Below the pieces are notes generated by a model. It was not told the origin of the DNA, did no database searches, and was given only the letters and a program-made list of their open reading frames with translations. This document shows, one piece after another, positions 2,109-23,850 of a stretch of 64,000 nt of DNA (position 1 is the first letter of the stretch; the number at the start of each line of letters is the position of its first letter). A program made the position numbers and the translations under genes. The DNA is taken from assembly GCA_015222805.1 (NCBI GenBank), contig JADFVZ010000125.1, forward strand, positions 24,342 through 88,341. Direction: 5' to 3'. This stretch comes from Pseudomonadota bacterium (GTDB taxonomy: Bacteria; Pseudomonadota; Gammaproteobacteria; Xanthomonadales; SZUA-36).

Positions 2109-2161
2109 AAGCAATAAAAAACCCGATCACTATCCGAGGCGTTCAATAAAAGTGTTGAAAA
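2109..2161 (-). repeat. Left copy of island-flanking inverted repeat, outward terminator
   Basis: This segment matches the reverse complement of 29193-29244: a 19-base exact block (2109-2127) and a 26-base block with one mismatch (2136-2161). Between them the core is turned round: GATCACTATC here, GATAGTGATC in the reverse complement of the right copy. Read on the minus strand it is a hairpin followed by a TTTTTT run, so it would stop transcripts leaving the island toward rho. It starts 12 bases after the rho stop codon. Confidence 0.75.
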
Positions 2162-2166
2162 GAATT

Positions 2167-2199
2167 AACCTCTCAAGCATACTTTTGCTTGGGAGGTTT
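2167..2199 (+). terminator. Hairpin with TTTT after rho that overlaps the next ribosome binding site
   Basis: Inverted repeat AACCTCTCAAGC / GCTTGGGAGGTT with one wobble pair, followed by TTTT. It is the best candidate for the plus-strand terminator of rho. Its 3' arm contains the GGGAGG ribosome binding site (2191-2196) of the gene starting at 2201, so in any transcript that enters from rho the site would be buried in the stem. Confidence 0.6.
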
Positions 2200-2200
2200 T

Positions 2201-3907
2201 ATGCGTCAAGATCGTTCATACCCTAGAGTTCCAAGGGAATATCAAGGTATTCAAGTTAATCATTGCAAAAATTCAAATTGTAAATATTTTGGCATACCAG
2301 CTAAAACAGACTTTCACCAAGGTAAAGACAACTACCGCTTAACTGGCGGTAAGAGTTCAATCATTAGTTTGAAATGTAAATTCTGTGGAAAGTATTCTGC
2401 ACTAAAAAGCAATGAAGGAATTTATGAAGAATATCAACGTATATACAATCTACATAACCCCTCAGAGCTCATAAGTTGTAGAAACGAAAAATGCAAAAAC
2501 CACTTAACTAGTGTCACTGAGGGTAAACAGTTTTACTCCGCATATGGAAAAACAAAAGCAGGATCAAAAAGATATAAGTGTAAAGCTTGTGGAAAAATAT
2601 TTTCATTCAAGGGCCAAGCAAACTTAAGGCAACGTCGTAAAGACGTTAACTCTATGGTTTTTAGGTTGTTAGTTAATAAAGGAATTATGCGACGAATATG
2701 TGAAATTGTTGATATTCACCCTGCAACTTTATATTCAAAAATCAACTTTATTCATAAACAATGTGTCCTTTTCTCATCACACAAAGAACATAATTTCTTT
2801 AATGATCAGGAGATAAAAAGACTTTATGTTTCTACTGATAGACAAGAGTATGTATTCAACTGGGGTTCTCAATTAGATCGGAGAAATGTAAAGTTACATT
2901 CAATAGGTACAGCTGATAATGTCAGTGGCTTCGTGTTTGGCATGCACCTTGATTTTGATCCAACTATAAACTCTGAGGAATTGGAAAAAAAGGTTTCTGA
3001 AGTAAACGATTATGAATTACCAATTCCATATAGGAAATATGGTAGGTATTGGCTTCAAGGTGATTATGTTGATCATAGTCTCGGACTTCCAATAGGAAAG
3101 CCTTCACCACCTGTCACTGGGTCAGAAAATGAAGATGGCCGATTTGTTAATGAAAACCTTAAAAGACCATCAGTCGGTGTCCAAGTACGGATGGACTATA
3201 CTCAATTTGGGCACTTTTATTACTTGGCCGATTTATTTCAAAAAGTTGAAAAAGTAAGATTTTTTCTCGACAGAGAGCCAGGTATTGACGCTGCTGTTAG
3301 TTCAGCATTTAAAAACAAGGTTGCAAATTCTGATGTTGATGCGTTTTTTGTTAGTATCAATAAAAACCTCACTGTTGATCAGAAAAAAAGTTTAAAGGCA
3401 CAGGGAGGTAAAAATTTAAAAAGGTTTTTTGATGAAAACCCAGGACTTACTCAAAAAGAGGCAGAAATTGAATATTTGATTGAAGCAATTTCTGGTTTAA
3501 GCATAGATGAGCTTTCCAAGAACAGGATCAGTCACCCAACATCAAATATGAACGAACCTCAAAAAACGATTCAATGGATAACCCCACGTCTAAATTATGA
3601 GAATGAGCATGTTGCTCGGCTATACAGATTGGCAAGTTTACATAGTATTGACAGGTTTTTTATGCTTGTTAGAAGAAGGTTGTCTGTGTTTGAAAGACCA
3701 ATAGCTTCAGCAAGTAACCAAAATCGAAGTTGGTATGGTTACAGTGCCTACAACCCGGAAATTGGAATGAAGCTACTAGACATATTTCGTGTTTATTATA
3801 ATTACTCACTTATGGGAAAAGATAAAAGTGTTCCTGCAGCTCGTATTGGAATTGTTAACAAACCAGTTTCCTTAGAGGAAATACTAGAGTTCATTCCTAG
3901 TAAATAA
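2201..3907 (+). CDS. Zinc-ribbon protein with DDE-transposase-like core
   Basis: 568-residue protein, probably DNA-binding. Seen: two or three Cys pairs typical of zinc ribbons near the N-terminus (CKNSNC, CKFC, CRNEKC, CKAC), a helix-turn-helix-like stretch after them (KGIMRRICEIVDIHPATLYSKI), then a region resembling an RNase H-fold transposase: strand with Asp (YVSTDRQEY), a second Asp strand (RFFLDREPG), and a C-terminal end like integrase-type transposases (YYNYSLMGKDKSVPA). The usual catalytic Glu is not obvious; an Asp (SIDRFF) or the later FERP may stand there. The ATG at 2201 follows GGGAGG by 4 bases. It is convergent with the WYL regulator (7 bases between stops) and shares its AT-rich composition. 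No terminal inverted repeats of a self-mobile IS were found around it, so it may be a domesticated transposase or the island's own recombinase. Function inferred, not known. Confidence 0.65.
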   Translation: MRQDRSYPRVPREYQGIQVNHCKNSNCKYFGIPAKTDFHQGKDNYRLTGGKSSIISLKCKFCGKYSALKSNEGIYEEYQRIYNLHNPSELISCRNEKCKNHLTSVTEGKQFYSAYGKTKAGSKRYKCKACGKIFSFKGQANLRQRRKDVNSMVFRLLVNKGIMRRICEIVDIHPATLYSKINFIHKQCVLFSSHKEHNFFNDQEIKRLYVSTDRQEYVFNWGSQLDRRNVKLHSIGTADNVSGFVFGMHLDFDPTINSEELEKKVSEVNDYELPIPYRKYGRYWLQGDYVDHSLGLPIGKPSPPVTGSENEDGRFVNENLKRPSVGVQVRMDYTQFGHFYYLADLFQKVEKVRFFLDREPGIDAAVSSAFKNKVANSDVDAFFVSINKNLTVDQKKSLKAQGGKNLKRFFDENPGLTQKEAEIEYLIEAISGLSIDELSKNRISHPTSNMNEPQKTIQWITPRLNYENEHVARLYRLASLHSIDRFFMLVRRRLSVFERPIASASNQNRSWYGYSAYNPEIGMKLLDIFRVYYNYSLMGKDKSVPAARIGIVNKPVSLEEILEFIPSK

Positions 3908-3914: not shown

Positions 3915-4784
3915 CTATTGAAATTTATATGTTTTGACTATGTCTTGATCGTTTAAACTTAGGTATATGTGATTTTCCGGTTTATCAAGTCTGATCCAAT
4001 ATAAAAAATATGGGATTAAGCACTCTCTAATTTCAACATCCCAAACCCAGTTCCCTTTGCTTTTCAGCATCCCATATTCCTTGGCAATTGCATTTTTCTG
4101 AGATTCTGAAAGTGTATTCTTGGGACTTATTTGAATTTTCTTGAAAGTATTAAACCTTTTATCTTCCGGCAAATCTATGACATCTGTTACATGACGAACT
4201 TTTGATGAGCCAAATCTATGTAAGACAAAATCTTTGTAAGCTTTTTCATCTTCGTCAAATGATCTGGCATGCCATCTGTATCCAGAGTAAATCAGTGATT
4301 GAGGCCAAATAATTTTTTTAGACGCTTCGGCATTCTTCATTGTTTGGTAGGTAATCACTAAACTACTTTTTTGAGAAATAGCTCTTGTAACATTTCTCAA
4401 GATAGGGGGCTCAAGATTACATTTAATTGGTGGAATGCCAAAAGCGCTTACTGTACCTGTTATAGATGAAATCACATCATAACTTTTTATCTCAGTATGA
4501 GTTTTCAATAAAGACAAATATTCTTCAGGCGATCCATTGCTGATTTGGGGTTTAAACTTTTTAGCAGGCTTATAAGCTCTGATTGAAACATCGTAGTCCA
4601 AGTTTTGAGGAAAGGATTTCCTATACAGCGTAAAGTCTTTAGTTATGTGGTTGCCACTGATTCCAAATACTTTTGCAACATCATTCCTTCCAACGGTTCC
4701 TTCCCAGTAGGCCATTGACTCAATGTAAAGCAACCTTTGCCTTTGAGCAAAACTAATTTCTTTAATTTTTGTAGCAGTTGTCAT
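3915..4784 (-). CDS. WYL-domain transcriptional regulator, BrxR/CapW-like
   Basis: 289-residue regulator of the kind that controls phage-defence operons. Known for the family: an N-terminal winged helix, a WYL ligand-sensing domain and a C-terminal WCX domain. Seen: an N-terminal pattern diagnostic for this subgroup (QRQRLLYIESMAYWEG then VGRNDVAKVFGISGNHITKD, residues 14-55, and FPQNLDYD), a WYL-type core in the middle (YSGYRWHARSFDEDEKAYKDFVLHR), and a C-terminal domain of about 90 residues. It is divergent from the methyltransferase gene, with an inverted repeat 14 bases before its own start. I infer autoregulation and control of the neighbouring operon. Confidence 0.82.
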   Translation of the reverse strand: MTTATKIKEISFAQRQRLLYIESMAYWEGTVGRNDVAKVFGISGNHITKDFTLYRKSFPQNLDYDVSIRAYKPAKKFKPQISNGSPEEYLSLLKTHTEIKSYDVISSITGTVSAFGIPPIKCNLEPPILRNVTRAISQKSSLVITYQTMKNAEASKKIIWPQSLIYSGYRWHARSFDEDEKAYKDFVLHRFGSSKVRHVTDVIDLPEDKRFNTFKKIQISPKNTLSESQKNAIAKEYGMLKSKGNWVWDVEIRECLIPYFLYWIRLDKPENHIYLSLNDQDIVKTYKFQ

Positions 4785-4797
4785 GTATAAAAGTATA

Positions 4798-4814
4798 CTA
4801 CATTAAATATGTAG
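4798..4814. promoter_or_regulatory. Likely operator of the WYL regulator
   Basis: Inverted repeat CTACAT-TAAAT-ATGTAG, 14 bases upstream of the regulator start codon and within the 144-base divergent region. Position and symmetry fit an autoregulatory site for a dimeric BrxR-like repressor. Inference only. Confidence 0.5.
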
Positions 4815-4902
4815 GGCAATATATTTATTTGCTGTAATTATAACATGTAATATACTGATTATATGTTGCATTAAATTGCATATGGATTTAAAATCAAAGA
4901 AT

Positions 4903-4920
4903 GGGTCTAGAGGGTCTAGA
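4903..4920. repeat. Tandem GGGTCTAGA direct repeat before the methyltransferase
   Basis: Two exact back-to-back copies of GGGTCTAGA end 8 bases before the methyltransferase start codon. Each holds the palindrome TCTAGA. The spacing would place a bound protein over the translation or transcription start. No strong ribosome binding site is otherwise visible for this gene. Confidence 0.5.
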
Positions 4921-4928
4921 ATTTAACA

Positions 4929-7900
4929 ATGAAACGAATTGATACAACACAGTGGCTTAACAAACTCGGATATGATCCGAGCAATGTTAGTTTGCCTGGA
5001 AGTGGTGTCGGACTGGATTCGCCCTACGCCCGAGAAATTAATCGATTACTTGATCCTGAAGCCATTTGTGCATCTGCTGTGGTTACTATGGATGAACACC
5101 CAGTTGTTTGTTTCATCGATAGTAATGGAAGAGGTGTCAAGAAAACGAAGTGGCTTGATAAGATCAGAAAAAAGATTTGGAATCAGAGTTTGGTTTCTTT
5201 AATTCTTGTTATCGACGATGATGAATTAACCGCTTTTCCCGTTAACAAGAAATCAAAGCCAGATGAAAAGTTGAAATTTGATTCAGCTGGCACAAGCAGC
5301 CAGTATTCAATGGCTGATATAAACACAGGTGAAATACAGAAACGACATCCTGATTGGTTTGACCCTGAAAACAATGTTGATCAGGTGCTTCTTTCCAATT
5401 TAAAACAATCCATCACTAAATTAAAGACCATGGGTGCAAGCGTTGATGATGCTCAATACCTCATGGGCCAATGCTTATTTGTTTCCTATCTCGAACACAG
5501 AGAAATAGTTAGTGACGAATACCGTAATCGAAGAGGTGTTGAGGGTCTTCACTCATTGATAAGCGCAAGAAATGGCAAAGGGTTGGAAAAATTATTTTTA
5601 TCTCTCAAAAAGAATTTCAATGGCGATTTCTTTGAGCTCAGAGAAAAAGGTCACTCTTATTGGACATCATTATCTGATGAAGTTTTTTCGCTCTTAGATG
5701 ACTTTTTGAACCGTGTGGACCTTAATTCTGGTCAATTATCTTTTTGGGGGTATGATTTTAGATATATTCCTGTTGAAATGATTTCTGGTATTTATGAGAC
5801 TTTTCTCGGAGATGATAAAGGTAATATTGGTGCCTACTACACGCCAAGGCATTTAGCCAACCTAACAATTGATCAAGCATTTGGTGAGAGTAAAGACATT
5901 ACTAAAGAAGTGGTGTTTGATGGAGCTTGCGGTTCTGGCATCTTATTAACTACAGCTTTTAGAAGAATAGTCTTAAGCTCAATGAGCAAAGGCAATGGTG
6001 ACCCATCTTTCAGAGAAAGAATTGATTTGTTGCTCAAATGTATTCGCGGAAGTGATATTAATCAATCGGCATGCAGGATAACGGTGTTTAGTTTGTATTT
6101 AGCACTTTTAGAGGACATACAACCTAAAGACATAGCTAGGCTGCAAGACGATGAAAAAATCAAACTCCCCAAATTGCTTGGTGAAATTATTGTTTGTGGC
6201 GAGAATGACGGTGATTTCTTTAATAAATCGCATAAGTTTATTACAGGTTCCAAAAACACTATCCTTGTCTCTAACCCACCTTGGTATGAAGCCAAAGGGT
6301 ATGAGAAAAATACAAGTTTCGAATTGTGGGCACAGTCAAATGAAAAAGAACTAGTCAGGCGACAAATTGCTTGCGCTTTTGCTCACAGATCATGTGATGC
6401 AGTTATTGAAAATGGGAGGGTTTGTTTAATACTTCCTGCTAGTATTTTAACAGCATCTACCAGTCAAGCATTTGTTTCACAGTTGCTCACAGAAATTGAA
6501 GTAGATCGAGTTATTAATTTCTCTGATATTAGGCGATTACTCTTTGCTAAGGCCATTCATCCTTGTGTGGTTATAAGTGGCAAAGTAAAATCCGGTTCTA
6601 ATTATGGAGTAGTTAAAAGTGATGAGTTCTGTGACTATTGGGTTCCTAAAGCGGATGTGAGTTTGGCTTTTGGCAGGCTTACCGTTCACAGCAGTGATCG
6701 TCACAGAATACTCACTCAAGATATATATTTTGACAATGAAATATTGCGCGTGTTTTTTTGGGGAAGCCAAAAAGACCACTCATTAATTTCTAAACTGAGA
6801 ATCAAAGGTCAAATAAATGACCTTGTTTCTCAAAAAGACTCCCGATGGACTATTTGTAAAGGTTTCCATCAAACTGATAGGTCAAAGGAACCATTACCCC
6901 CTGGGAAATTAAAGGCAATTCCATTCTTGGATTCTCGTAAGTTTCCAAAACAATCACCCATTTTAGACAGAGATATACTGGAAGAGTTTCCAGACTCCAT
7001 TGTCACTGTAGCTGATTATGGTTCAAAATCAGGTGCGGCATTTAGCGGTCCTCGGGTGTTATTTCCAGATGGAGCCACCAATAATTTTGAGGTAAAGGCT
7101 TTATTTACCAATATTGAGTTTTGTTTTAAACAAACAATTTCAGCAATAGTAGGACCTAGTGATGATAGTGATATATTACGATTCCTTACAATATACCTAA
7201 GATCTAAGTTGGCTAGCTATGTGCTATTCCATACTGCTTACTCATTAGCCAGTGAACGACCACACATTAAATTAATAGAAATAAGAGATTTGCCATTTGT
7301 ATTGCCAGAAGATCACTCTGATCCACAAAAAGCAAAAAAAATAGTCACTGAAGTTTCTAAAAAAGTAAAAGCGCTGAACAACGTAAACGTATTTGAATTT
7401 GAAAATAAATACAGAAAATTGAAATCTGAGTGTGAAAAATTAATTTTTGAATATTTCGGCTTAGATTATGCAGAACAAAGCATGGTCAATGATACATTTG
7501 AATATCTATTACCAAGTGTTCAACCCAATGCTTATAACAAAATAAAAACACCACTTTATTACCCAGTTTCTGAGAGTGATATTGACTCATACTCTCATGT
7601 TTTACTCCATGAGTTAAATGAATGGAGAGCAAAACTTGGAGGTAAAGGAAAAATAAAAATAGAAACTATTTATGATGATGCAACTCTTGCCTATACATTA
7701 GGCATAGTCAAGCTATCAATTTCCTCAACATCAACAATCTCTAGTTTCACAAATGATAATTCGGATGTGATGAGCATTCTTACTATTTTGAGAAACAATA
7801 ATGTGCTACCTATGCAAATCGCACATGGAAATTATCACCTGGGAAGTGATTTTTTAATTCACGCAGGAGAGCATATATATTTAATCAAACCACTTGTAAA

Positions 7901-7991
7901 ACGTTTATGGCTAAAAAACCAAGCTGTCCATGATGCTCAACGCATTGTTACATCAATCCAGACCAATCTGATGCCAGAGAATGCTAGATGA
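4929..7991 (+). CDS. N6-adenine DNA methyltransferase (type I/IIG/PglX-like)
   Basis: 1020-residue predicted adenine-N6 methyltransferase. Seen: a helical N-terminal third, then GAYYTPRHLANL (about 300-312) leading to SAM motif I DGACGSG (about 330-336), and catalytic motif IV NPPW (about 448-451). This is the N6_Mtase order of HsdM and type IIG enzymes; NPPW replaces the more usual NPPY/NPPF. The stretch from about 600 to 790 has the look of a target-recognition region (FHQTDRSKEP, IKLIEIRDLPFVLP), so specificity may be encoded in the same chain. There is no helicase or obvious nuclease motif within it. The stop codon overlaps the start of the next gene by 4 bases (ATGA), so the two are co-translated. 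AT-rich compared with the chromosome, as are its neighbours, suggesting acquisition as a block. Confidence 0.85.
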   Translation: MKRIDTTQWLNKLGYDPSNVSLPGSGVGLDSPYAREINRLLDPEAICASAVVTMDEHPVVCFIDSNGRGVKKTKWLDKIRKKIWNQSLVSLILVIDDDELTAFPVNKKSKPDEKLKFDSAGTSSQYSMADINTGEIQKRHPDWFDPENNVDQVLLSNLKQSITKLKTMGASVDDAQYLMGQCLFVSYLEHREIVSDEYRNRRGVEGLHSLISARNGKGLEKLFLSLKKNFNGDFFELREKGHSYWTSLSDEVFSLLDDFLNRVDLNSGQLSFWGYDFRYIPVEMISGIYETFLGDDKGNIGAYYTPRHLANLTIDQAFGESKDITKEVVFDGACGSGILLTTAFRRIVLSSMSKGNGDPSFRERIDLLLKCIRGSDINQSACRITVFSLYLALLEDIQPKDIARLQDDEKIKLPKLLGEIIVCGENDGDFFNKSHKFITGSKNTILVSNPPWYEAKGYEKNTSFELWAQSNEKELVRRQIACAFAHRSCDAVIENGRVCLILPASILTASTSQAFVSQLLTEIEVDRVINFSDIRRLLFAKAIHPCVVISGKVKSGSNYGVVKSDEFCDYWVPKADVSLAFGRLTVHSSDRHRILTQDIYFDNEILRVFFWGSQKDHSLISKLRIKGQINDLVSQKDSRWTICKGFHQTDRSKEPLPPGKLKAIPFLDSRKFPKQSPILDRDILEEFPDSIVTVADYGSKSGAAFSGPRVLFPDGATNNFEVKALFTNIEFCFKQTISAIVGPSDDSDILRFLTIYLRSKLASYVLFHTAYSLASERPHIKLIEIRDLPFVLPEDHSDPQKAKKIVTEVSKKVKALNNVNVFEFENKYRKLKSECEKLIFEYFGLDYAEQSMVNDTFEYLLPSVQPNAYNKIKTPLYYPVSESDIDSYSHVLLHELNEWRAKLGGKGKIKIETIYDDATLAYTLGIVKLSISSTSTISSFTNDNSDVMSILTILRNNNVLPMQIAHGNYHLGSDFLIHAGEHIYLIKPLVKRLWLKNQAVHDAQRIVTSIQTNLMPENAR

Positions 7992-8656
7992 TATCACCAG
8001 ATTGGCGTGATGTATTTCCATATGAAGAGGCCAGCCAGGTTATAGACGCCATAAAAAAAACCTGGGGTAAATTGGTAAAACGAAACTTTGAGGATTTTCA
8101 ACCCGAAACAGATGAGCCTAAGTTAACAATTCGATTAAAAATACTGCTTAGTAACATAAAGAATGAATTTGGACTTACAGGGTACTTCACTGCTGAGGGC
8201 GTAGAAGGTAAGCTGGATATGCGAAGTGGTAGTTTGGACAAAATGGGTAGAACAGACATCTTATATGTTTCTAGGGGGGTCGAGGAAGAATTCACATTTG
8301 AATTTAAAAAGCTAACAACCAAACCTGACAGCAGAAGAGCGTATCATAAATTTGGGATTATGCGATTTGTCACTGGAAAGTACAGTGATAAAAAAAACTT
8401 AGACTTCATGGTTGCGATCATCATCAAAGAAGCTGAGGCTGATGAAATACTTACTGGTCTGACTAAATCTTTTGCGAAGCCAGATATAAAATCAGCGCTG
8501 CATATGCTCACAAATGATGATGGGGATTTTGTCATCAAACCTTCTAGTGAGCTTCCAGATTCTGTAAACTTTGACACAAAACATGCAAGAACCCTTTTGC
8601 CTGATTCACCAGATATAACTATTTGTCACTTCCATGTCTCTCACATCAAAAACTGA
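7988..8656 (+). CDS. Putative PD-(D/E)XK nuclease partner of the methyltransferase
   Basis: 222-residue protein translationally coupled to the methyltransferase (ATGA overlap). Seen: a pattern fitting the PD-(D/E)XK nuclease core, with Asp at about residue 90 (GRTDILYV) and E-F-K-K at about 105-108 (FTFEFKKL), preceded by a helix-rich N-terminus. A C-terminal tail of about 90 residues has no motif I recognise. The context (WYL repressor, methyltransferase, overlap) makes it the likely restriction subunit. Alternatively it could be a modification-dependent or accessory specificity protein. I do not recognise a named family. Its stop is one base before a short transposon-end-like inverted repeat. 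Confidence 0.6.
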   Translation: MISPDWRDVFPYEEASQVIDAIKKTWGKLVKRNFEDFQPETDEPKLTIRLKILLSNIKNEFGLTGYFTAEGVEGKLDMRSGSLDKMGRTDILYVSRGVEEEFTFEFKKLTTKPDSRRAYHKFGIMRFVTGKYSDKKNLDFMVAIIIKEAEADEILTGLTKSFAKPDIKSALHMLTNDDGDFVIKPSSELPDSVNFDTKHARTLLPDSPDITICHFHVSHIKN

Positions 8657-8702: not shown

Positions 8703-8721
8703 TTCTCCACTTATTGTATTG

Positions 8722-8910
8722 CTATAATCCCAGCTTGTTTCCCCTAAACGATTGGTCACCTGCCTCCCTCTGTTCAGCAGCCCAGCGACCGAGCATATTA
8801 CTATTAAGCCCAAGATTCCTCGCAGCTTCTGCACGACTATAATCCTGATCCAACACCAGGCTGACTGCGTCTAGCTTGAACTCCTTTGAATACTTCTTTC
8901 TTTTGCTCAT
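8722..8910 (-). pseudogene. IS3-family transposase OrfA, truncated
   Basis: First ~57 residues of an IS3/IS911-type OrfA: a basic start, then the helix-turn-helix (YSKEFKLDAVSLVLDQ and SRAEAARNLGLNSNMLGRW). A GGGAGAAG ribosome binding site precedes the ATG. Intact OrfA proteins are near 100 residues with a leucine zipper; here the frame leaves the family after FRGN and stops. No orfB follows. A decayed insertion sequence. Confidence 0.75.
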
Positions 8911-9087: not shown

Positions 9088-10581
9088 ATGCAGTTTCGTG
9101 CCAAGCAAATAGCCCCTCCAAAGGAGTGGGCAATCTTCGAGGATTTGTGCCACGCCCTATTCAAACAGGTATGGCAGGATCCGCTTGCGCAGAAGAACGG
9201 GCGGAGGGGGCAAGCACAGCACGGTGTCGATGTCTTCGGTTCACCAAACGATGACCTCCAGTTATACTTGGGCGTCCAGTGTAAGGGTAAAGACAGCAAC
9301 TACGGCAGCAAGGTCGTATGGTCGGAAGTGGTGGCGGAAATTGCTAAGGCGGAACAATTCTCTCCTAAACTGGACAAGTGGATATTCGCAACCACCGCTC
9401 CTGCGGATGCCAAACTACAAAAGGCTGCCCGGGAATTGTCCGTCGAGCGTAAGGCCAAAGGTCTATTTAGTGTCGATGTGCTGGCCTGGGAAGAAATCCA
9501 GGCCCTGATGGCTGGCGCGCCTGAAGTGATAACCGAGTTCTATCCTGAGCACGCCGACCACCTGCCGCAGGTGATCGAGGCATTGCGTGCCCTACCTCCG
9601 CTCGCAGAAAAAATCGCAAGCCTCGTTGAGAGGTTCAATGCGAAGCTACCTGAGCCTTCAAATCCGCACGGCCCCGCGCTTTGGGAAGTGGTGACGTTTG
9701 ATGGCGATCGCGGGCTAGGTCCTGCCTTAATGGGCTATTCGCTAGGGCCTTCTGACGCCACTGCGTGCCCGCGCTTGACCGAAGTCGGCACCATTCTATC
9801 GCAGCTGAAAATAGCTTATTCAGCGCGCCTTATTGGCGCGTCCGGAGCTGGAAAGTCGATTTGCTCATACCAAGCTGCGAAAGTGTTGGCGGCTAGGGGC
9901 TTCCAAGTACAGCGCCTGCTAGATCCTGAGGCCGACAATATCGCATTGGAGGCGGCATTACCCGGCAAGCGCCGTCTGTGTCTCATAGACGATGCTCACC
10001 TACTAAAACCTCATGTTCTTAGTAGAATAGAGGGTCAGGCTGATCCGGCTCTACTGGTCCTTACGACGCACAATGCTATTGAGGGCGTCAGCCATCGAGG
10101 TGCGATCACACTTGACCAGAAGCGTGCGGTAAAGACGATTGCAGCTGCTCTGCGAGCCAACTTGCCCAAGACCCTGGAGGCCGTGCGTCTCGCTAACGAC
10201 AATGTGGGTGAGCGCATGATGAACACCGATATCGGCGAACGCCTGGACCATGCGGAAAGCACTTCGGATCGTCCCTGGCAGTTCTGTTTCGTGCTTGGAG
10301 GTGGTTGGCGCCGATCAAAACAAGCAGCGGATTCAGCCCGTGCAGCTAATGCTGACCTCATCCTTGCGGCGGTTGCGATCCGGCAGCTGGCATCTCGCGA
10401 TGCGCGTGCGGTTCCAGGAGAGATTGTGGAAGTCTGTGCACGTGCCGGCATCGATGCCGGAATGGTCGATCAGGGATTGGAATGGCTGGGGAAGCAAAGG
10501 CTGATCGTGGGCGTGGCGGATTGTCGGGCTCCGCATCAGCGCTTCGCTACGGTCGTGCTCAAACGTATCCTAGAGGGGTAA
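9088..10581 (+). CDS. STAND-type NTPase with N-terminal PD-(D/E)XK nuclease (5' part of split gene)
   Basis: 497-residue predicted nuclease-NTPase, probable anti-phage sensor-effector. Seen: N-terminal Mrr/Cap4-like nuclease core with Asp at about 48 (HGVDVFG) and Q-C-K at about 64-66 (GVQCKGKD); P-loop GASGAGKS at about 250-257; Walker B LCLIDDAH near 300; then a winged-helix-like region ending near 497. Family knowledge: Avs-type and related STAND proteins have nuclease, NTPase and a C-terminal repeat sensor. The gene stops at TAA 10579-10581, but the same frame stays open straight through to 12204, so a C-terminal sensor of 530+ residues follows in frame. A single CAA to TAA change would explain the split; a natural two-gene design is possible. 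It is clearly GC-richer than both flanks, pointing to separate acquisition. The ATG follows AGAGG by about 6 bases. Confidence 0.8.
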   Translation: MQFRAKQIAPPKEWAIFEDLCHALFKQVWQDPLAQKNGRRGQAQHGVDVFGSPNDDLQLYLGVQCKGKDSNYGSKVVWSEVVAEIAKAEQFSPKLDKWIFATTAPADAKLQKAARELSVERKAKGLFSVDVLAWEEIQALMAGAPEVITEFYPEHADHLPQVIEALRALPPLAEKIASLVERFNAKLPEPSNPHGPALWEVVTFDGDRGLGPALMGYSLGPSDATACPRLTEVGTILSQLKIAYSARLIGASGAGKSICSYQAAKVLAARGFQVQRLLDPEADNIALEAALPGKRRLCLIDDAHLLKPHVLSRIEGQADPALLVLTTHNAIEGVSHRGAITLDQKRAVKTIAAALRANLPKTLEAVRLANDNVGERMMNTDIGERLDHAESTSDRPWQFCFVLGGGWRRSKQAADSARAANADLILAAVAIRQLASRDARAVPGEIVEVCARAGIDAGMVDQGLEWLGKQRLIVGVADCRAPHQRFATVVLKRILEG

Positions 10582-10611
10582 GGCAAGGGTGCGCGCGAGA
10601 AGGTCGCCACA

Positions 10612-12204
10612 ATGATAGAAGGCGTATTACGCGATCCGCAATTCCCGTATGCAGGTTTGCAAGTCCTTATACATGAACTCCGCTTCGGAAGTGGTAACTA
10701 CAGATGGACGCGCCTTCTCGGACAGCCCGGGGTTGAGGCTGTGATTGCGCGATGTTGGGCGGCCGAAGGTTCGGATCGCGGTTTTGCGGCACTCGCCCTT
10801 TCAGACCTGTGGGATTTCGCGGAGGGTGGGGCGACTGCCGTGGTGGGTCCAAATGTGTCCACACTGGCGAATTGGATTTCCAATCCCAGCGATGGCGCAT
10901 ACGGTTTCGGCCACATCTTGAACAATCTTGTTCAGCAGGATCAGAATGTTGCCGAGAGGGTCGTTGCAGCCACTGATCCGATCGCAATCGCGACAGCCTA
11001 TTCCAACGCCAACCCCGATACGGCATACGGTCTTGCCGATCTCTTGAGCAGCGTCGCCTATGTGAAGGTTGATGACTTCAACACCAAGGTTCGGACTGCT
11101 ATTGATCGGGACAAACTGCGCGAGCTCGCCAAGCACGAAGCCTTTCTTGAGGACGCCTTCATCTTCTCGAAATTCTGCGCTTCCGTAGTTTGGTTGGACG
11201 AGGATCTGGCGCTGGAAATGGCCGAACTTTTCGTGCCAACTGCGCAGCAAGTCCTAGCCAAAGACCCGGTGGAAGGATTTCATCAACTCAGCCGCGATTT
11301 CGCTTCGACCGTACTACGCGTGTTTGACGTGTTGCATGTGTATGTCGGGAAGCTGAAGCCGACTCGCCGTCAGTGGGTAATCGCGCGGCGCATGTGCGAG
11401 AAAATCGACCCCAAGCGGATCGCAGAACACATCTCGACGGTGCGCCCCCGGAATTTTCAGTCAGCAGGCTTCTTCCTTCATTTCCTCTGCCAGTCGGCAC
11501 CACGGAAATACGAAGCGGCCCTTTGCCAAGTCGATTGGAACAAGCTGGATTCGGTCATTGGCGATGATTGGGGGAATATGCCTCATGACACCGAGGTGCT
11601 CTTGGCCACCCTCTATTTGCGGCCATCGACGCGGCACCTTGTCCAAAAATTCATCTCCGACAGGGCCGACCGGATCGTGCATTTTCCACCGCGACTGATG
11701 CTAATGGTGCCGGAAGTTGGCCTCGCACATCTAGCCAAGGGCAACTCGCTTCGACTAGCCCAACACGGCCACTTGAGTTGGGACTTCGGCGGCATAGCCT
11801 TGGCCTTCATCGTAGATGCGCGACCCGAATTGGTTGAGCAGGCTGTCGGCCCCTTTGTTGATGAGATAGCGCGTGGGGTGACGAACTACAACCGAAACTC
11901 CACCGGCCAAGCAGAAGGTTTTGTTCGCGTGGTGATTGAGCATACGCCTGCCGTTTGGCACCAAATTTTAGCTAAACTTGATCCCGCTGTGGCTGAGAAA
12001 AATTTGGCTGAATGCCTCAGAGGAGACGTGGATCATCGGCGAACGGCAGCGGCCGTCATTGAGTCCGCAATGAGCTTGGATGGCCCCGTCAGCGGCATGG
12101 CTCGTCGTTTGCGGGCACGATTCCCAAATGCATCAACCGCGCCGACCGACACGCCGCGTTTCAGCAGACGGCGCGGGCGGGCGCGTCGGAAGCGCAAAGG
12201 ATAG
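10612..12204 (+). CDS. C-terminal helical-repeat part of the split STAND protein
   Basis: 530 residues from the ATG at 10612, though the frame is open from 10582, directly after the TAA of the upstream part. The sequence is rich in helices with repeated short units (LADLLSSVAYVK, LEMAELFVPTA, KYEAALCQVDW) and ends in a basic tail (RRRGRARRKRKG), consistent with a TPR/HEAT-like sensor but with no named motif I can recognise. It has the same GC-rich composition as the upstream part. A weak AAGG lies 9-10 bases before the ATG, so translation re-start is conceivable. I read it as either the 3' half of a nonsense-mutated 1038-codon gene or the second gene of a two-component system. Confidence 0.7.
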   Translation: MIEGVLRDPQFPYAGLQVLIHELRFGSGNYRWTRLLGQPGVEAVIARCWAAEGSDRGFAALALSDLWDFAEGGATAVVGPNVSTLANWISNPSDGAYGFGHILNNLVQQDQNVAERVVAATDPIAIATAYSNANPDTAYGLADLLSSVAYVKVDDFNTKVRTAIDRDKLRELAKHEAFLEDAFIFSKFCASVVWLDEDLALEMAELFVPTAQQVLAKDPVEGFHQLSRDFASTVLRVFDVLHVYVGKLKPTRRQWVIARRMCEKIDPKRIAEHISTVRPRNFQSAGFFLHFLCQSAPRKYEAALCQVDWNKLDSVIGDDWGNMPHDTEVLLATLYLRPSTRHLVQKFISDRADRIVHFPPRLMLMVPEVGLAHLAKGNSLRLAQHGHLSWDFGGIALAFIVDARPELVEQAVGPFVDEIARGVTNYNRNSTGQAEGFVRVVIEHTPAVWHQILAKLDPAVAEKNLAECLRGDVDHRRTAAAVIESAMSLDGPVSGMARRLRARFPNASTAPTDTPRFSRRRGRARRKRKG

Positions 12205-12524
12205 CTGTAAAGAATGATAGCCTTTTGAATCAGGCGCTGATGTCATCAGGTGTAAATGTACAAGAAAGCATCATACTAAAGCTCATTTAAGCCTTTGATT
12301 TTATTAATGGACATTTTTGAACTCAAGTGAAAGTATCATACTTACAAACTAGACCTTCCCTAATTTACTCAATTCTCTTACAAATAAGTATCATACTTAA
12401 TTTCAGTCTTGCTCAATAACTTAACAATACCGGCGCAAGCGCTTTGTGTGGCATTATGGATGCGTGATGCGCCAATTACCTTTATTGGAGCACTTTGTTC
12501 TGTTGTCCATCTTCGCAGCGCTAT
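12205..12524. other. Gap holding Tn7-like end repeats
   Basis: Non-coding 320 bases. Contents: a candidate Tn7-like left end with three AAGYATCATACT sites (12251-12399) and, nearer the HicB-like gene, a stretch (12430-12470) with repeated GCGC and TGCGTGATGCGCC motifs that I cannot assign. Confidence 0.6.
12251..12399 (+). mobile_element. Candidate Tn7-like transposon left end with three TnsB-type sites
   Basis: Begins TGTAAATGTACAAGAAAGC. Aligned with the known Tn7 terminus, the TGT, the ACAA.AAAG block and the ..ACT fall at identical spacing. Two more copies of AAGTATCATACTT follow at 12331-12343 and 12386-12398, each a near-perfect palindrome, about 55-65 bases apart, like the dispersed TnsB sites of a Tn7 left end. 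The likely partner end is at 15392. Flanking five bases (TCAGG, CATGG) do not match, so the pairing is uncertain. Confidence 0.5.
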
Positions 12525-13157
12525 CTAGGAAAAATTACCTGTAGATTTATCCCTTTTCCTCGTCACTAATTCATTTGCCCCATGAGTAACCACATTAGCC
12601 AGATATTCTGATCGGTTCATTCCGAGCCCTGCAGCTTTGTGATTAATGATATCTAATGCTCCAGATTTTATCGTCGCATTAATACGTATTGCAGGAACGG
12701 TTGGTACTTCGGGATTAATGCCATCTTTGGTGCGCTTTATCGGAATGCTAGGCCCAGTGTGTTTTATTAAACCTAACATACCAACATGGGCCAAATACTC
12801 AGAGCGGCTCATGCCGTGATCTGCGGCCTTAGTATCGGCGAGTTTTAATGTTTCCGGTTTGAACGTAAGATTAATCCGCTTGGTTGGCCCAAGCAGCGAA
12901 TCAATGTCGACATCAACATAGGCCAGAAAAGAGAACCCTTTATCACAATGAAGGTCCGATAATTTGACCTCGTATGCGGCTGAGGGCACGTCCAGACCAT
13001 CCCTGATCAAACACTCAGCGCGAAACACAATTGCTTCCTGCGCGTTTGAGATTGCTCCATCAATAGAATGGGCGCGTGTAGTGCACCTCGGAAGATCGGG
13101 CACCATCACATTAAAATTTATTTCATCATCCGTATGTACAATTACTGGATATCGCAT
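12525..13157 (-). CDS. HicB-like antitoxin/repressor with two ribbon-helix-helix domains
   Basis: 210 residues. Seen: an N-terminal HicB fold (MRYPVIVHTDDE, then VMVPDLPRCTTRAHSIDGAISNAQEAI, residues 1-50), followed by two tandem ribbon-helix-helix-type segments with matching ends: TKRINLTFKPETLK...GMSRSEYLA and AIRINATIKSGALD...GMNRSEYLA. Usual HicB has one DNA-binding domain and about 130-150 residues. The start at 13157 (MRYP) is chosen for its GGAGGT site a few bases upstream; a longer frame to 13181 lacks one. No hicA toxin gene is seen on either side, so it is an orphan antitoxin or a stand-alone regulator. Upstream decanucleotide repeats may be its operator. Confidence 0.75.
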   Translation of the reverse strand: MRYPVIVHTDDEINFNVMVPDLPRCTTRAHSIDGAISNAQEAIVFRAECLIRDGLDVPSAAYEVKLSDLHCDKGFSFLAYVDVDIDSLLGPTKRINLTFKPETLKLADTKAADHGMSRSEYLAHVGMLGLIKHTGPSIPIKRTKDGINPEVPTVPAIRINATIKSGALDIINHKAAGLGMNRSEYLANVVTHGANELVTRKRDKSTGNFS

Positions 13158-13208
13158 AGAACCTCCAACTAACAAAATCATTTACCTGAATAGCATGATA
13201 GATTAACT

Positions 13209-13238
13209 ATACACACTAATACACACTAATACACACTA
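13209..13238. repeat. Three tandem ACACACTAAT decamers, probable operator
   Basis: Three consecutive 10-base units (ACACACTAAT, ACACACTAAT, ACACACTACG) about 52 bases upstream of the HicB-like start. One unit per helical turn suits cooperative binding of ribbon-helix-helix dimers, making this a likely autoregulatory operator. Confidence 0.5.
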
Positions 13239-13278
13239 CGCCAAGGGAAAGCGTCAAGAAAAAGCCTCAAAATTGCAT

Positions 13279-13322
13279 ATTCCGGTTAATTTGAACACCG
13301 ATTCCGGTTTTATTTGAACACC
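13279..13322. repeat. IS21-type terminal repeats
   Basis: Two direct copies of ATTCCGGTT(T)(A/T)ATTTGAACACC (13279-13299 and 13301-13322), 30 bases beyond the end of the istB fragment. Multiple terminal repeats are typical of IS21-family ends, so this marks the right end of the truncated element. Confidence 0.6.
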
Positions 13323-13351
13323 TGATTTCTCAACGCATTCCGAAGTCTCTT

Positions 13352-13616
13352 TTAACTCAAGTGTTCATATTGGTCAACTCCTCCGATTAATTTCTGCATG
13401 GATTCACCTTTTAGTTTAAGCCGGTGTGAGTTGTGCATTAACCGATCCAGGATGGCATCAGCCAGCGTGTTATCACCGATGCTGGCGTACCATTTATCGG
13501 TTGGCAACTGACTGATGACAACCGTAGATGTGTGACCGTGACGGTCATCCATGATTTCCATAAGATCATTTCGATGCGCGGGTTTTAGTGCTTCAAGTGG
13601 TATCGCCAAGTTAACC
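13352..13616 (-). pseudogene. istB: IS21 helper ATPase IstB, 3' fragment
   Basis: About 87 codons matching the C-terminal end of IstB: RNDLMEIMDDRHGHTS, SQLPTDKWYASIGD, TLADAILDRLMHNSHR and LKGES are the hallmark segments. The P-loop half is missing. The frame is cut at 13617, where an IS6-family terminal sequence begins, so an IS6 insertion or deletion removed the rest. Confidence 0.85.
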
Positions 13617-13640
13617 GGCTGTAACTGCTAGAATCAGGCG
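13617..13640 (+). repeat. IS6-family terminal inverted repeat
   Basis: GGCTGTAACTGCTAGAATCAGGCG lies directly before the IS6-type transposase start. A diverged copy, GCTGTAACAACTAGAATCAGGTG, occurs at about 16328-16350, showing another end of the same IS in the island. Confidence 0.55.
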
Positions 13641-13962
13641 ATGAATACTTATAAGCGTCATAGGTTTCCTCCAGATATCATTAGTTACTCAGTTTGGCTC
13701 TACTATCGATTTAATCTCAGTCACCGGTATATCGAGGATCTCCTGGCCGAGCGGGGAATCACTGTCAGCCATGAATCAATCAGACTGTGGTGCATCAAAT
13801 TCGGTGCAAGATATGCGAGACGCCTGAAGCGCCGACACAGAGGCTATGGCGACACATTCTACATCGATGAAGTCTTCATAAAAATTAGCGGTGAGCAACA
13901 CTACCTTTGGCGGGCAGTGGATCAGGATGGTGTGGTGGTAGCTGTGTATCTCCAAAGAAAGC
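13641..13962 (+). pseudogene. IS6-family transposase, N-terminal fragment
   Basis: Starts with ATG at 13641. Residues 1-107 match the IS6/IS26 transposase: RHRFPPDIISYSVWLYYRFNLS, the helix-turn-helix (RYIEDLLAERGITVSHESIRLW), and the first catalytic Asp in GDTFYIDEVFIKI, then the strand LWRAVDQDGVVVAVYLQ. After about 13960 the frame leaves the family and ends at 14015. The second Asp and the Glu are absent, so it is inactive. Confidence 0.85.
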
Positions 13963-13964
13963 GT

Positions 13965-14172
13965 TTAGTTCGGGTAGAGGGTTGTACCTGGGTTGTTAAA
14001 ATAGTGTTCTTTTAGAATGCTTTTAATATGTTGGTCGCTCGCTTTGTCTGTAAACGCTTTGAGTGTTTGACCATTTTTCCAGCCAACCGTGTAATCGTCT
14101 AAGGACTTAGGTAGGGTTGACAGCCATGCTTCGGCGGACGGATGGAATACGCCATTCGTCCAAATACTCCTC
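13965..14172 (-). pseudogene. Unknown coding remnant on the minus strand
   Basis: An open frame of about 69 codons without a clear start, ending in TAA at 13965-13967. The sequence (for example FHPSAEAWLSTLPKSLDDY and VGWKNGQTLKAFTD) looks protein-like in composition. I do not recognise the family. It abuts the breakpoint of the IS6 fragment and is probably the 3' end of a gene truncated by the rearrangements. Confidence 0.35.
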
Positions 14173-14709
14173 TATTTATAATACTTACCTCTTACACGGC
14201 TAGCTCAATTTTGTATAAAAATATTAAAATTAAAACCCATATAATCAAAAGGTTATATTTAGTAAAAGAGCTCAGCTTTGACCCAATGTCACAGCATATC
14301 TGTATGAACCGGTTTTTACGCCTCCATCACCTTCTATGTTGAATTGTACTTAAATTTATACCGGCAATTGCTGTCGGAGAGTAATAAAGTATCATACTGA
14401 GTAATAAAGTTGCATACTGGATTTCTAGGCCATTGATAAATAATGATTAAAATATAAGGTCAGGCAAATTGTGCTTAGCCAGTATGATACTTTATTAATT
14501 ATGGACAAAAATACACCCATATAGAATGCGGGATACAGTGGGTTTAAGTATGAACCTTTATTACTCTCCGACAATTGCACTGAATAATGATCAGGGATGA
14601 ACTTGGTATTATATTGATTACACACTATATTGTCGTCTATATGCTGGTATGAATATGAGTGCGATTCAACAGTCTTGATAATTATTATTAGTCATCCTCC
14701 CAGCATCAA
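14173..14709. other. Non-coding stretch with mini Tn7-like element
   Basis: AT-rich. Holds the 202-base mini-element at 14372-14573 and, near 14658-14671, a minus-strand TGTTGAATCGCACTC motif related to the repeats at 8658 and 24070. A weak frame at 14142-14342 has no ribosome binding site or recognisable motif. Confidence 0.6.
14372..14573. mobile_element. 202-bp mini Tn7-like element with perfect 5-bp target duplication
   Basis: Starts TGTCGGAGAGTAATAAAG and ends with the reverse complement CTTTATTACTCTCCGACA. It is flanked by ATTGC on both sides (14367-14371 and 14574-14578), the 5-base duplication expected of Tn7-like transposition. The left end carries two TnsB-type sites (AATAAAGTATCATACTG and AATAAAGTTGCATACTG); the right end carries two more in inverted orientation (14481-14491 and 14547-14557). 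No gene fits inside. It is a non-autonomous element mobilised in trans. Confidence 0.75.
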
Positions 14710-15105
14710 TCACAACTTTGCCAGAGATAAGCCATAGAGCACAATTACTAATACGATGAACAAGCATAGGGCAGTAAACAGCCCAATTTTTCTGGCTCTG
14801 CTTATAAATCCGTAATAGATATCGTGGGAGCAATCTTCACTCGCCGACTTGGCAACCTCTGCAACTTCTTTTAGGCCTATCCAAACGCCCCATCCAACCA
14901 CGGCCACACATATGGAAGCAATTACAGAAATTAAAACTATAATAAGAAAGATGGCATTTTTAGTTTCATTGCTAGTATCAGCACTCAAAATGTACCCAGT
15001 TATGGCAACCAAAATAGCCAGATAAAAGGTAAACCCCTTCTGAATAGCCGAGCTAGCTTCTGAAATATTACTCCACATTAGACCTGCTAGTTCTGATGAT
15101 TTCAT
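14710..15105 (-). CDS. Small membrane protein, three predicted helices
   Basis: 131 residues. Three hydrophobic stretches are clear: about 26-42 (FTFYLAILVAITGYIL), 50-76 (AIFLIIVLISVIASICVAVV) and 108-128 (LFTALCLFIVLVIVLYGLSL). A polar segment of about 30 residues with Cys and His lies between the second and third. I recognise no family. The ribosome binding site is weak. It lies between two Tn7-like ends, so it may be transposon cargo; a membrane effector role in defence is conceivable but unsupported. Confidence 0.55.
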   Translation of the reverse strand: MKSSELAGLMWSNISEASSAIQKGFTFYLAILVAITGYILSADTSNETKNAIFLIIVLISVIASICVAVVGWGVWIGLKEVAEVAKSASEDCSHDIYYGFISRARKIGLFTALCLFIVLVIVLYGLSLAKL

Positions 15106-15245
15106 TTGTTACATAACCTTGAGGTAAGTTGAAGTCTGAAGCCTAGCGTAAGCTTATCCGTTTGGCCACTTATTATGTGACTTTTTGGACTTACCAGATG
15201 TCGTAGACAACACCAAGCTATTAATTGAGCGGGGCAAGGGGTTGT

Positions 15246-15392
15246 CAGTATGATGCTTTATTACTCAGAATAAACCAGAATTTAGTAAATTCAACTTTCA
15301 GTATGATACTTTATTTATTTCAGGTTGATTTTATTAACGGTGGAATGCGGGTTATAGGGGATCTCAGTATGAAACTTTAATACTCTCCTACA
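15246..15392 (-). mobile_element. Tn7-like transposon right end with three TnsB-type sites
   Basis: Read on the minus strand from 15392: TGTAGGAGAGTATTAAAG then TTTCATACTGAG, nearly the same as the mini-element end at 14372. Two further sites lie inside (15300-15310 and 15247-15257, consensus AATAAAGYATCATACTGA). The outer ACA touches the start of a subtilase gene fragment, so the transposon interrupted that gene. Confidence 0.65.
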
Positions 15393-15847
15393 CATGGACC
15401 ATTCTTGGTGGTGCCGGCACCGGCCAGGGAGTGGTTGATCTGGAACAGGGCTGGACCCTAAACCATGAAGACCTCACTGCTCATGGCGCCAGCTTATTAT
15501 TTGGCGTCTTACAAAACGGATCACGTCCACATGGTACCTCGGTTCTGGGTGAGATATGCGCCGTTGATAATACTGTAGGTTGTGTCAGCATAGCGTCGGA
15601 AATTGCCTCAGTGAACGTATCTTCCCATTCGGGCTCACTGGCTAATGTACCTGATGCCATCGTAGCGGCAATTGCCACTATGGATTTCGGTCAGGTGCTG
15701 TTGCTGGAAGTTCAAACCGTTGCACCGGCCGCACCGGTATTCGGAGCGCCAGTAGAACTGATTGATGAATCATTCGAGGCTATTCGCCTGGCTTCAGCCC
15801 TGGGGATTATCGTGGTTGAAGCCGGAGGCAATGGTGTCATTTTTGGT
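15393..15847 (+). pseudogene. Subtilisin-like protease fragment
   Basis: About 150 in-frame codons of an S8-type protease. Seen: GTGQGVVDLEQGW, the His motif HGTSVLGEI, and the strand IIVVEAGGNG that precedes the oxyanion Asn in many subtilases. There is no N-terminal signal, no catalytic Ser block (GTSMA), and no natural start or stop. The left edge is the Tn7-like end at 15392; the right edge is the AATAGATGAGACTG repeat at 15848. It is a gene remnant cut on both sides and is not a duplicate of the intact subtilase at 47.4-49.8 kb. Confidence 0.75.
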
Positions 15848-15883
15848 AATAGATGAGACTGAGTTGAAATAGATGAGACTGAG
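15848..15883 (+). repeat. Two AATAGATGAGACTGAG units, IS-end-like
   Basis: Exact 16-base copies at 15848-15863 and 15868-15883, 20 bases apart. Single copies recur at 16274-16286 and 16361-16374, and at 23905-23918 and 23928-23941 beside the istA remnant. Regularly spaced repeats at ends fit IS21-type terminal transposase sites. Confidence 0.5.
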
Positions 15884-15944
15884 ATAGTGATAAAGGCTCA
15901 ATCAGCAGCTTTTAGGTGAGAGAACCTGGATTGTGACGACAGTA
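15868..15944 (+). repeat. Dispersed ~77-bp repeat, copy R1
   Basis: Aligns with 16361-16437 over the full length at roughly 75-80 percent identity by eye: AATAGATGAGACTG, then ATAGTGAT, AATCAGCAGCTTT, AGGTGAGAGAA.CTGG.TTGTG and ACAGTA. Two more diverged copies lie at 22391-22462 and 28794-28867. It precedes the lipoprotein gene by 37 bases. Nature unknown: IS-derived end or recombination module. Confidence 0.5.
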
Positions 15945-15981
15945 TTACCATGAATACAGAGTTTAATAATAGGAGTATGTT

Positions 15982-16254
15982 ATGACAAGTAAAAGAACAG
16001 CTTTAATGATAATGTTGGTCACCATGGTACTAATAAGTGCTTGTGCAATGAAAAAACCCACAACAGGTGTTGGTCAATGTAAGACGCAGTGTTCACTGGA
16101 TTACCCAGAAAAATTAACTGAATGTAGAGACTACTGTGATTGTGCATACAAAGGAGCAAGTATTGCTGATAAAACAAATGGCTCCCCAAAAAAGACAACG
16201 GAACTGGCCTGTCGCGCAATAGCCAAAAAGGCGGGTGTAGTAATAACAGATTGA
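15982..16254 (+). CDS. Small cysteine-rich lipoprotein
   Basis: 90 residues with a lipoprotein signal: basic start, hydrophobic core (TALMIMLVTMVLISAC) and lipobox LISAC with Cys at about 21. The mature part is about 70 residues with six further Cys (GQCKTQCSLDYPEKLTECRD, YCDCAY, ELAC), suggesting disulfides and therefore periplasmic or outer-membrane location. AGGAG lies 6-7 bases before the ATG. It sits alone between repeats R1 and R2, like a cassette. No family recognised; export is the only firm inference. Confidence 0.75.
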   Translation: MTSKRTALMIMLVTMVLISACAMKKPTTGVGQCKTQCSLDYPEKLTECRDYCDCAYKGASIADKTNGSPKKTTELACRAIAKKAGVVITD

Positions 16255-16652
16255 GCTACTTGTCATTTATTGAAATAGATGAGACTAGATCATCTTTGGT
16301 AATCAATGAGACAAAATTAGAAAACAGCTGTAACAACTAGAATCAGGTGTCAATATCTGAAATAGATGAGACTGGGTTAGTGATGAAGAGCTAAATCAGC
16401 AGCTTTAGGTGAGAGAAGCTGGTTTGTGGTGACAGTAAATCTATAAGGAACGTAATAGGAGGCTGGTTACAGCCAATGCAGTAACTAAAGTGAATAGTGA
16501 AATGAAAACAAAACCAAAGGCTGTTGTGCAGGAATTCCTGTAGAGCAATAGTCCAAGGTATGTAGCAAAAAACATGAAAACTCTGGCAGGGTTGAAGCTC
16601 CCACTGAATGACAAATCTTCCTTGCATCAGAACTTTCCAAAGGAGGCGACTA
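16255..16652. other. Gap with IS ends and repeat R2
   Basis: 398 bases. Contains AATAGATGAGACT at 16274, a diverged AATCAATGAGACAA at 16301, an IS6-type end copy at 16328-16350, repeat R2 at 16361-16437, and the leader of the lipase gene. No coding region convinces me. Confidence 0.6.
16361..16437 (+). repeat. Dispersed ~77-bp repeat, copy R2
   Basis: Closest partner of R1 (15868-15944). It contains AGCTAAATCAGCAGCTTTA, which can fold as a short stem, and ends GGTTTGTGGTGACAGTAA. It lies 215 bases upstream of the lipase-protease pair. Confidence 0.5.
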
Positions 16653-18011: not shown

Positions 18012-18015
18012 TGAA

Positions 18016-19137: not shown

Positions 19138-19300
19138 TGCAATTCTTTATTCGACTTAAGATAATTGGCTCAGCATTCTTCACCTCTAGTTAGGTGGCCA
19201 AATTAACTATGCCACTACAATCCTATTAAAAAGAGCCAGTCTAATACCTCACCGGGAAGCTGGCTCAAATCATGAAGATGAATCTATATATTCAAAACTG

Positions 19301-20245: not shown

Positions 20246-20277
20246 TTGCATGTCCACCTTATTCAATTGCTTACTAA

Positions 20278-22576: not shown

Positions 22577-22787
22577 ATGTTAGTAAAATCCAGATCTAGT
22601 CTTCTTGATTCTTTGGTATGGATATCACAAGACACTCTCTTATTACAATTGATCCACTGTCATGCCCACTTAGAAATACACTTGACCCAGCTTGAGGATC
22701 GACTCGATGCTCTTGTAACGGCAACTACCCAGCAAAAAAGCTCGGCCACAGGCGGCTTCCAGCCGTCTGTCACCATAGGGTTTACAA

Positions 22788-22822
22788 TACCCAGGCAGCT
22801 TCGATAGCTTTATGCCTGGGTA
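22788..22822. repeat. Inverted repeat TACCCAGGCA / TGCCTGGGTA
   Basis: Perfect 10-base arms (22788-22797 and 22813-22822) around a 15-base loop that itself contains AGCT...AGCT. It overlaps the last codons of the istA remnant. It may be a small terminator or a REP-like stem; there is no T-run. Confidence 0.45.
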
Positions 22823-23768: not shown

Positions 23769-23850
23769 CGCTCGTTACTCCTGATTACCAGGTGTATAGC
23801 GTGACGGGTAATCGTTTAGGAAAACAGGGTGGGGTTTACTTTGCGCTTAC

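Follow-up and report, generated by a model that had tools for sequence, protein, structure and literature searches.

A probable two-subunit restriction-modification module next to the transposase in a DDE transposon with intrinsic terminators as insertion sites

Introduction

Type IIG restriction-modification enzymes, among them the Eco57I/MmeI-like proteins, are defined by a nuclease that is fused to the methyltransferase. The regulators BrxR and CapW, which are wHTH-WYL-WCX proteins, typically control BREX and CBASS (PMC9122589, PMC12255303). Among mobile elements, the dfrG transposon Tn7491, known from Tn6198, Gram-positive plasmids, S. aureus phages and SCCmec, encodes a relative of the transposase described below (PMC10763498).

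We analysed a stretch of 64,000 nucleotides from a Pseudomonadota bacterium (contig JADFVZ010000125.1), referred to here as the window, to which all coordinates apply. A first-pass annotation had singled out the interval 3915-8656 as a possible restriction-type system consisting of a WYL regulator, a methyltransferase and a small nuclease candidate. That annotation missed the context of the three genes, which the ends, target duplications, empty sites and transposase fold identify as transposon cargo lying beside the transposase. We consider it likely that the locus is a two-subunit restriction-modification module, repressed by its WYL protein, which forms the constant left cargo of a terminator-targeting DDE transposon.

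Results

A methyltransferase gene overlaps the gene of a predicted nuclease

The open reading frame list and the coordinates agreed with the annotation for all three genes. The WYL-domain regulator (289 aa; 3915-4784, minus strand) is divergent from an adenine-N6 DNA methyltransferase (1020 aa; 4929-7991, plus strand) and convergent with the transposase. The gene of the small protein (222 aa; 7988-8656, plus strand) starts within the methyltransferase stop, the two sharing an ATGA at 7988-7991. Pfam models matched the WYL domain (E 6e-9) and the methyltransferase (Eco57I, 4e-13; N6_Mtase, 8e-12), and the latter indeed carries the catalytic NPPW that had been claimed for it, at residues 449-452, together with the motif I sequence FDGACGSG. 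The 222-aa protein gave no model match in Pfam, NCBIfam or PADLOC.

The assignment of this small protein to the PD-(D/E)XK nucleases was upheld by its predicted fold and its residues. The AlphaFold model (pLDDT 91.7, pTM 0.88) has an αβββαβ core with a helix at 43-61, strands at 91-94 and 101-109, a helix at 113-128 and a strand at 138-147. D90 and the ExK residues E105 and K107, all three already picked out by the annotation, are located on the sheet of this restriction-endonuclease-like core and are joined by a glutamate of helix A, E43; the four residues are invariant in 92 of 92 homologues with 20-45% identity. When the model was compared with the PDB by Foldseek, McrC came out best as a weak match (prob 0.92, E 0.018, TM 0.38), and BamHI, MunI, EcoO109I and other restriction-endonuclease folds followed below it, also weakly. 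By sequence and model, the 222-aa protein is a PD-(D/E)XK protein of no named subfamily with intact catalytic residues, and it is predicted to cleave DNA.

Methyltransferase and nuclease are inherited as a unit

Plasmid searches by tblastn, with one or the other protein as query, yielded loci in which both proteins are adjacent, at 20-45% identity, and a scan of the genome collection with the methyltransferase only yielded 80 loci, distributed over Proteobacteria and a few other phyla. As detected with a profile of the small protein, a small gene lies directly downstream of the methyltransferase in all 80 genome loci. The search for the three-gene set in other genomes, which the annotation had suggested, has thus recovered the methyltransferase-nuclease pair, and the ATGA overlap by which the nuclease candidate was said to be coupled is found again in 70 of 92 loci. 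Pairing is far above chance, and the two genes constitute a conserved two-gene unit. Resistance genes are close to the pair on two plasmids (L002 and L004), namely sul2 in Paracoccus, and OXA and aadA on the IncP plasmid pRSB223, whose annotation splits the methyltransferase into two ORFs.

Across loci, nuclease identities are correlated with methyltransferase identities (r 0.974), and between close relatives methyltransferase identity is even along the length. No recognition-domain swaps were found between close methyltransferase relatives, unlike in many enzymes that share one recognition domain. The absence of swaps and the correlation show that the pair is inherited as a unit, although the swap test does not prove that the nuclease relies on the methyltransferase to recognize its site. 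Co-divergence without swaps would also be expected if the 222-aa protein acted autonomously, as a type IIP-like restriction enzyme that recognizes its site by itself, and were kept to the same site as an independent methyltransferase with which it forms no complex. The separate genes and the presence of BamHI, MunI and EcoO109I among the weak structural matches agree with such an arrangement, which we nevertheless consider less likely: its size, its long C-terminal half and its conserved non-catalytic N-terminal domain make the methyltransferase resemble the modification/recognition subunit of a complex, and the nuclease is linked to it unusually strictly. For the two-subunit module that we prefer, the small size of the nuclease and its invariable position beside the methyltransferase make joint action of the two probable.

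The fused nuclease of type IIG enzymes is absent by sequence

The view that the system fits none of the common classes was too strong, given that the PADLOC model REase_MTase_IIG (PDLC03623), labelled type IIG, already matches the methyltransferase with 891 bits, even though the fused nuclease is absent. The protein has the gamma-type adenine methyltransferase domain with NPPY/F/W that is expected of type IIG, in which NPPW and DGACGSG are invariant or nearly so. Its N-terminal 150 residues are conserved in 84 full-length homologues, all of which have P58 and W84-N85-Q86, and neither D..ExK nor another conserved acidic motif is present in residues 1-150 of these homologues. The methyltransferase appears to be devoid of the nuclease that defines type IIG and, with no D..ExK at its N-terminus, the separate 222-aa subunit is the obvious candidate for the active nuclease. 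The PADLOC label matches methyltransferases whose nuclease is in the next gene, a nuclease that annotation pipelines will miss.

No HsdR, HsdS, Res, PglZ or DISARM gene adjoins the pair in the window or among neighbours in annotated records, in agreement with the earlier remark that HsdR, BREX and DISARM components and type III Res are lacking there. Adjacent genes for a methyltransferase and an endonuclease, with no ATPase or specificity subunit, are characteristic of type II systems with separate enzymes. Neither HsdS nor HsdR of type I is encoded in the window or among the annotated neighbours of the pair; as for BREX, no PglZ or BrxC is found near the pair in the window, and PADLOC similarity of the methyltransferase to PglX amounts to only 29 bits. 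Judged by its predicted parts, the module is type II-like, combining a methyltransferase similar to Eco57I/type IIG enzymes with a PD-(D/E)XK nuclease that is encoded apart from it, and is not a type IIG, BREX or type I system.

That weak similarity to PglX, together with the BREX and CBASS loci that BrxR/CapW regulators typically control (PMC9122589, PMC12255303), could be taken to indicate a BREX/PglX-like or abortive effector system, where the methyltransferase would mark self and the nuclease would be a triggered effector and not site-specific. We regard this as improbable, because annotated records have no PglZ, BrxC/PglY, BrxL or NTPase gene next to the pair and because nuclease and methyltransferase are directly coupled in every case.

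The WYL regulator is exchangeable

Among solved structures, BrxR (E 3.6e-30), CapW and their relatives match the WYL protein along most of its sequence, with E values of 4e-21 to 4e-30. Its full-length resemblance to wHTH-WYL-WCX proteins places it in the BrxR/CapW kind, as the annotation had proposed. Its gene accompanies the pair in 29 of 93 loci; a homologous same-strand gene takes its place in 36 others, the five tested members of this group being MerR-like at the edge of the Pfam cut-off, and a 158-aa gene of another kind occupies the regulator position in 3 loci. With MerR-like HTH or other small genes elsewhere, WYL control is, as far as these sequences tell, one of several solutions with a regulator exchangeable across lineages, and not the general property of the system that it had been thought to be. 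On the methyltransferase tree the WYL label requires 4 changes and the transposase label 6, compared with at least 14 for shuffled transposase labels.

The divergent promoter/operator region (4785-4928) is A+T-rich and contains imperfect palindromes, which make it a tentative candidate for the operator of the WYL protein; the palindromes of this region had no consensus across loci, and no common WYL operator was found.

The three genes are cargo of a transposon inserted in the rho terminator

The interval of the annotation proved too narrow, since the gene to its left (2189-3907, plus strand) encodes the transposase of the carrier element and accompanies the trio in most WYL-type loci: in 21 of 29 such loci the WYL gene faces a convergent gene encoding about 570 aa, the other 8 having no adjacent transposase. 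The listed TTG start at 2189 falls inside the left hairpin of the element, so that ATG 2201 is the more likely start. The 572-aa product has an IS1-like zinc-ribbon N-terminus, on which the NCBIfam model transpos_IS1 scored 33.8 bits against a cut-off of 100, too low for membership in the IS1 family, and an RNase H-like core. Foldseek matched its model (pLDDT 83.9) to ISCth4 (E 3.8e-4), then to Mos1, Mu and TnsB. D217 and D361 are invariant and the position of the catalytic glutamate is uncertain. Sequence and fold prediction characterize the protein as an RNase H-like DDE transposase. The candidate role of this gene as a fourth defence component was rejected in view of the ends, the duplications and the transposase fold. 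Of the genomes sampled, 5 of 369 from Gammaproteobacteria and 11 of 398 from Proteobacteria had members of the transposase family, counting the genome of the window.

The transposon itself spans 27,084 bp (2135-29218) and has the 23-bp terminal inverted repeats and the target-site duplication, here of 10 bp, of a DDE cargo transposon. On the left, the duplication copy GATCACTATC (2125-2134) belongs to the loop/arm of the rho intrinsic terminator, with a 1-bp register ambiguity, and is followed by the terminal inverted repeat GAGGCGTTCAATAAAAGTGTTGA (2136-2158, plus strand), a motif conserved upstream of the transposase in related loci, and by an inner hairpin resembling an intrinsic terminator (2167-2198, plus strand), AACCTCTCAAGCATACTTTTGCTTGGGAGGTT then TTATG. 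On the right, an inward, terminator-like inner hairpin (29159-29184, minus strand; coordinates by counting) precedes the terminal inverted repeat GAGGCGTTCAATAAAGGTGTTGA (29196-29218, minus strand), which differs from the left one at one position, and the perfect 10-bp duplication copy GATCACTATC (29219-29228), after which the rest of the terminator, GGGTTTTTTATTGC, continues.

The motif GAGsCGTTCAATTAAAGTGTTGA occurs upstream of the transposase in nearly all loci, with an inverted copy at the far end. An automatic search that reached no further than 1.5 kb beyond the nuclease detected no inverted repeats around the pair, most right ends being 2-20 kb further out. All seven elements whose ends were paired by this motif alone (window, L022, L024, L027, L043, L069 and L096) are flanked by a 10-bp direct duplication; 7 further elements came from searches that required the duplication and so lend it no independent support.

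Removal of the element and one duplication copy rebuilds an empty site, AATAAAAAACCCGATCACTATCGGGTTTTTTATT, which is the terminator behind rho, and in genomes of the same genus the terminator is uninterrupted at that place, as in L115 (CAATAAAAAACCCGATCTTAATGATCGGGTTTTTTATTG). To the right of the element, genes recognized by eye as 2-methylcitrate synthase, methylisocitrate lyase and malate dehydrogenase lie on the minus strand (29389-32410), so that the synthase gene converges on rho and the target is the bidirectional terminator common to both. The targets of 13 of the 14 delimited elements pass the terminator criterion, compared with 435 of 4000 random positions, and 12 of the 14 score at least 17.5, the 99% quantile of random positions being 13.5. 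The transposon family inserts into intrinsic terminators. Most ends of the 14 elements have an inward hairpin followed by T, which means that the element usually brings its own terminators. In openly readable papers we found no direct precedent for a terminator preference of this transposase family, of which only Tn7491 (dfrG) had been named.

In the module-bearing lineage the transposase gene strictly adjoins the WYL gene, which might suggest a domesticated, immobile transposase serving a defence locus, with the window not containing a moving unit. Matching ends, target duplications, insertion sites that differ across genomes and the intact terminator of same-genus genomes all speak for mobility, as do the copies of about 2 kb that consist of the transposase only (L096 and L099), and domestication is highly improbable.

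The module keeps its place while other cargo changes

Transposase, WYL, methyltransferase and nuclease genes occupy the left end in 7 of 7 module-bearing elements with both ends, and the remainder differs. Transposase and methyltransferase identities are correlated (r 0.937, Mantel p 0.0005), from which it follows that the four genes travel together. The module was absent from all 7 elements that were retrieved from sampled genomes by similarity to the transposase, irrespective of the methyltransferase; this and the 8 of 29 WYL loci without transposase make the module a trait of a sublineage that is not needed for transposition. Small family members of 2.0-3.0 kb were found on a P. aeruginosa plasmid, on a Marinobacter plasmid and in one genome (L096, L099 and L156), the first two being barely larger than the transposase gene.

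In the window, the variable side extends from 9088 to 28298. Its right end holds a complete-looking Hachiman pair, HamB (24353-27490, minus strand; 1045 aa, 1266 bits) and HamA (27456-28298, minus strand; 280 aa, 355 bits). At 9088-12204 (plus strand), an Mrr-like/STAND-like gene (9088-10581; 497 aa) and that of a 530-aa protein without family match may represent a further defence unit, and at 16608-19137 (plus strand) a 467-aa LCAT/lipase-like gene overlaps a 379-aa gene with a weak Nal1-type (trypsin-like) match, a possible effector pair. Transposase remnants are scattered over this side at 8715-8910, 13352-13609 (IstB/IS21 by Pfam), 13641-14015 and 22824-23768, the others being IS3-, IS6- or IS21-like by eye. 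Elsewhere, the right-side cargo comprises a PD-Lambda-1 relative (L069), an FRG-domain candidate (L026), a chromate transporter (L022) and a metal P-type ATPase with a MerR regulator (L024).

Restriction-modification genes exert a post-segregational effect. The fixed place of the module next to the transposase amid changing cargo suggests, as a hypothesis, that it also helps to keep the element. Carried further, the module might primarily stabilise the transposon, with loss of the element diluting the methyltransferase until the nuclease kills the cell, under selection that acts regardless of phages. The constant core in all seven delimited module-bearing elements, the matching histories of transposase and methyltransferase, and the occurrence of the pair on plasmids are all consistent with it; on the other hand, module-free transposons of the family exist and persist, and there are module loci without transposase. 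We therefore treat it as a serious but less probable option. Rather doubtful is the wider proposal that the unit serves the element itself, killing cells that lose it and methylating element ends or target terminators to time transposition, as distal cargo is swapped.

Discussion

According to the model that we favour, the methyltransferase would methylate the adenines of one fixed site in the host DNA, and DNA lacking this mark would be cleaved by the PD-(D/E)XK subunit, probably jointly with the methyltransferase and possibly in a complex with it. The divergent BrxR/CapW-type WYL protein may repress its own gene and the operon; the protein families are the source of the predicted cleavage, methylation motif and repression. 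The transposon would enter intrinsic terminator hairpins with a 10-bp duplication, supply its own inward terminators and have a right side where the cargo, for defence or metal resistance, varies. The likely benefit of the module to the host is protection against phages and incoming DNA; losing the element may also carry a penalty imposed by the module.

The findings point to a concrete carrier of a defence island: a DDE element that enters genomes harmlessly via intrinsic terminators, its own terminator replacing the broken one, and whose transposase is coupled to a restriction-modification unit while other cargo is exchanged. Moreover, some methyltransferases filed as single-chain type IIG are suggested to be one half of a split system, the nuclease being the unannotated downstream gene.

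Compared with type IIG enzymes (PDLC03623; Eco57I/MmeI-like), the methyltransferase has full-length similarity and the gamma-type N6-adenine motifs (Eco57I Pfam), but in every homologous locus examined whose sequence continues beyond the methyltransferase, an overlapping gene of its own encodes the nuclease. The 222-aa protein has the αβββαβ core with E, D and ExK in common with McrC and other PD-(D/E)XK restriction endonucleases; the match to McrC is weak, however, no McrB-like GTPase is near, and the protein is paired with a methyltransferase. The similarity of the WYL protein to BrxR/CapW structures (PDB 7t8k, 9c5g, 7tb5, 7tb6 and 7qfz) covers most of its length and its gene is likewise divergent from a defence operon, but by position it would control a methyltransferase-nuclease unit instead of BREX or CBASS, and a MerR-like HTH gene replaces it in other lineages.

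As regards the carrier, IS1 resembles it in the zinc-binding N-terminal domain of the transposase and in duplications of 9-10 bp, but here the transposase has about 570 aa, the ends are different and cargo is carried. In Tn7491 the transposase is homologous (24.5% identity over 548 residues), the inverted ends contain a GTTCA core and the duplication is short, being of 9 bp according to the comparison with phage phi 12. In that comparison, the dfrG transposon of the Staphylococcus phage phiSa2wa-st1633 (L102, against phi 12, L104) interrupts the phage structural-gene region with the 9-bp duplication CTATTCGAT, at a place that is not an obvious terminator, this being the one site looked at. Tn7491 differs in its size of 3.3 kb, its single resistance gene and its end sequence, and terminator targeting was not reported for it. 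On the basis of these sequence comparisons, we place the carrier element as a relative of Tn7491 and only a distant one of IS1.
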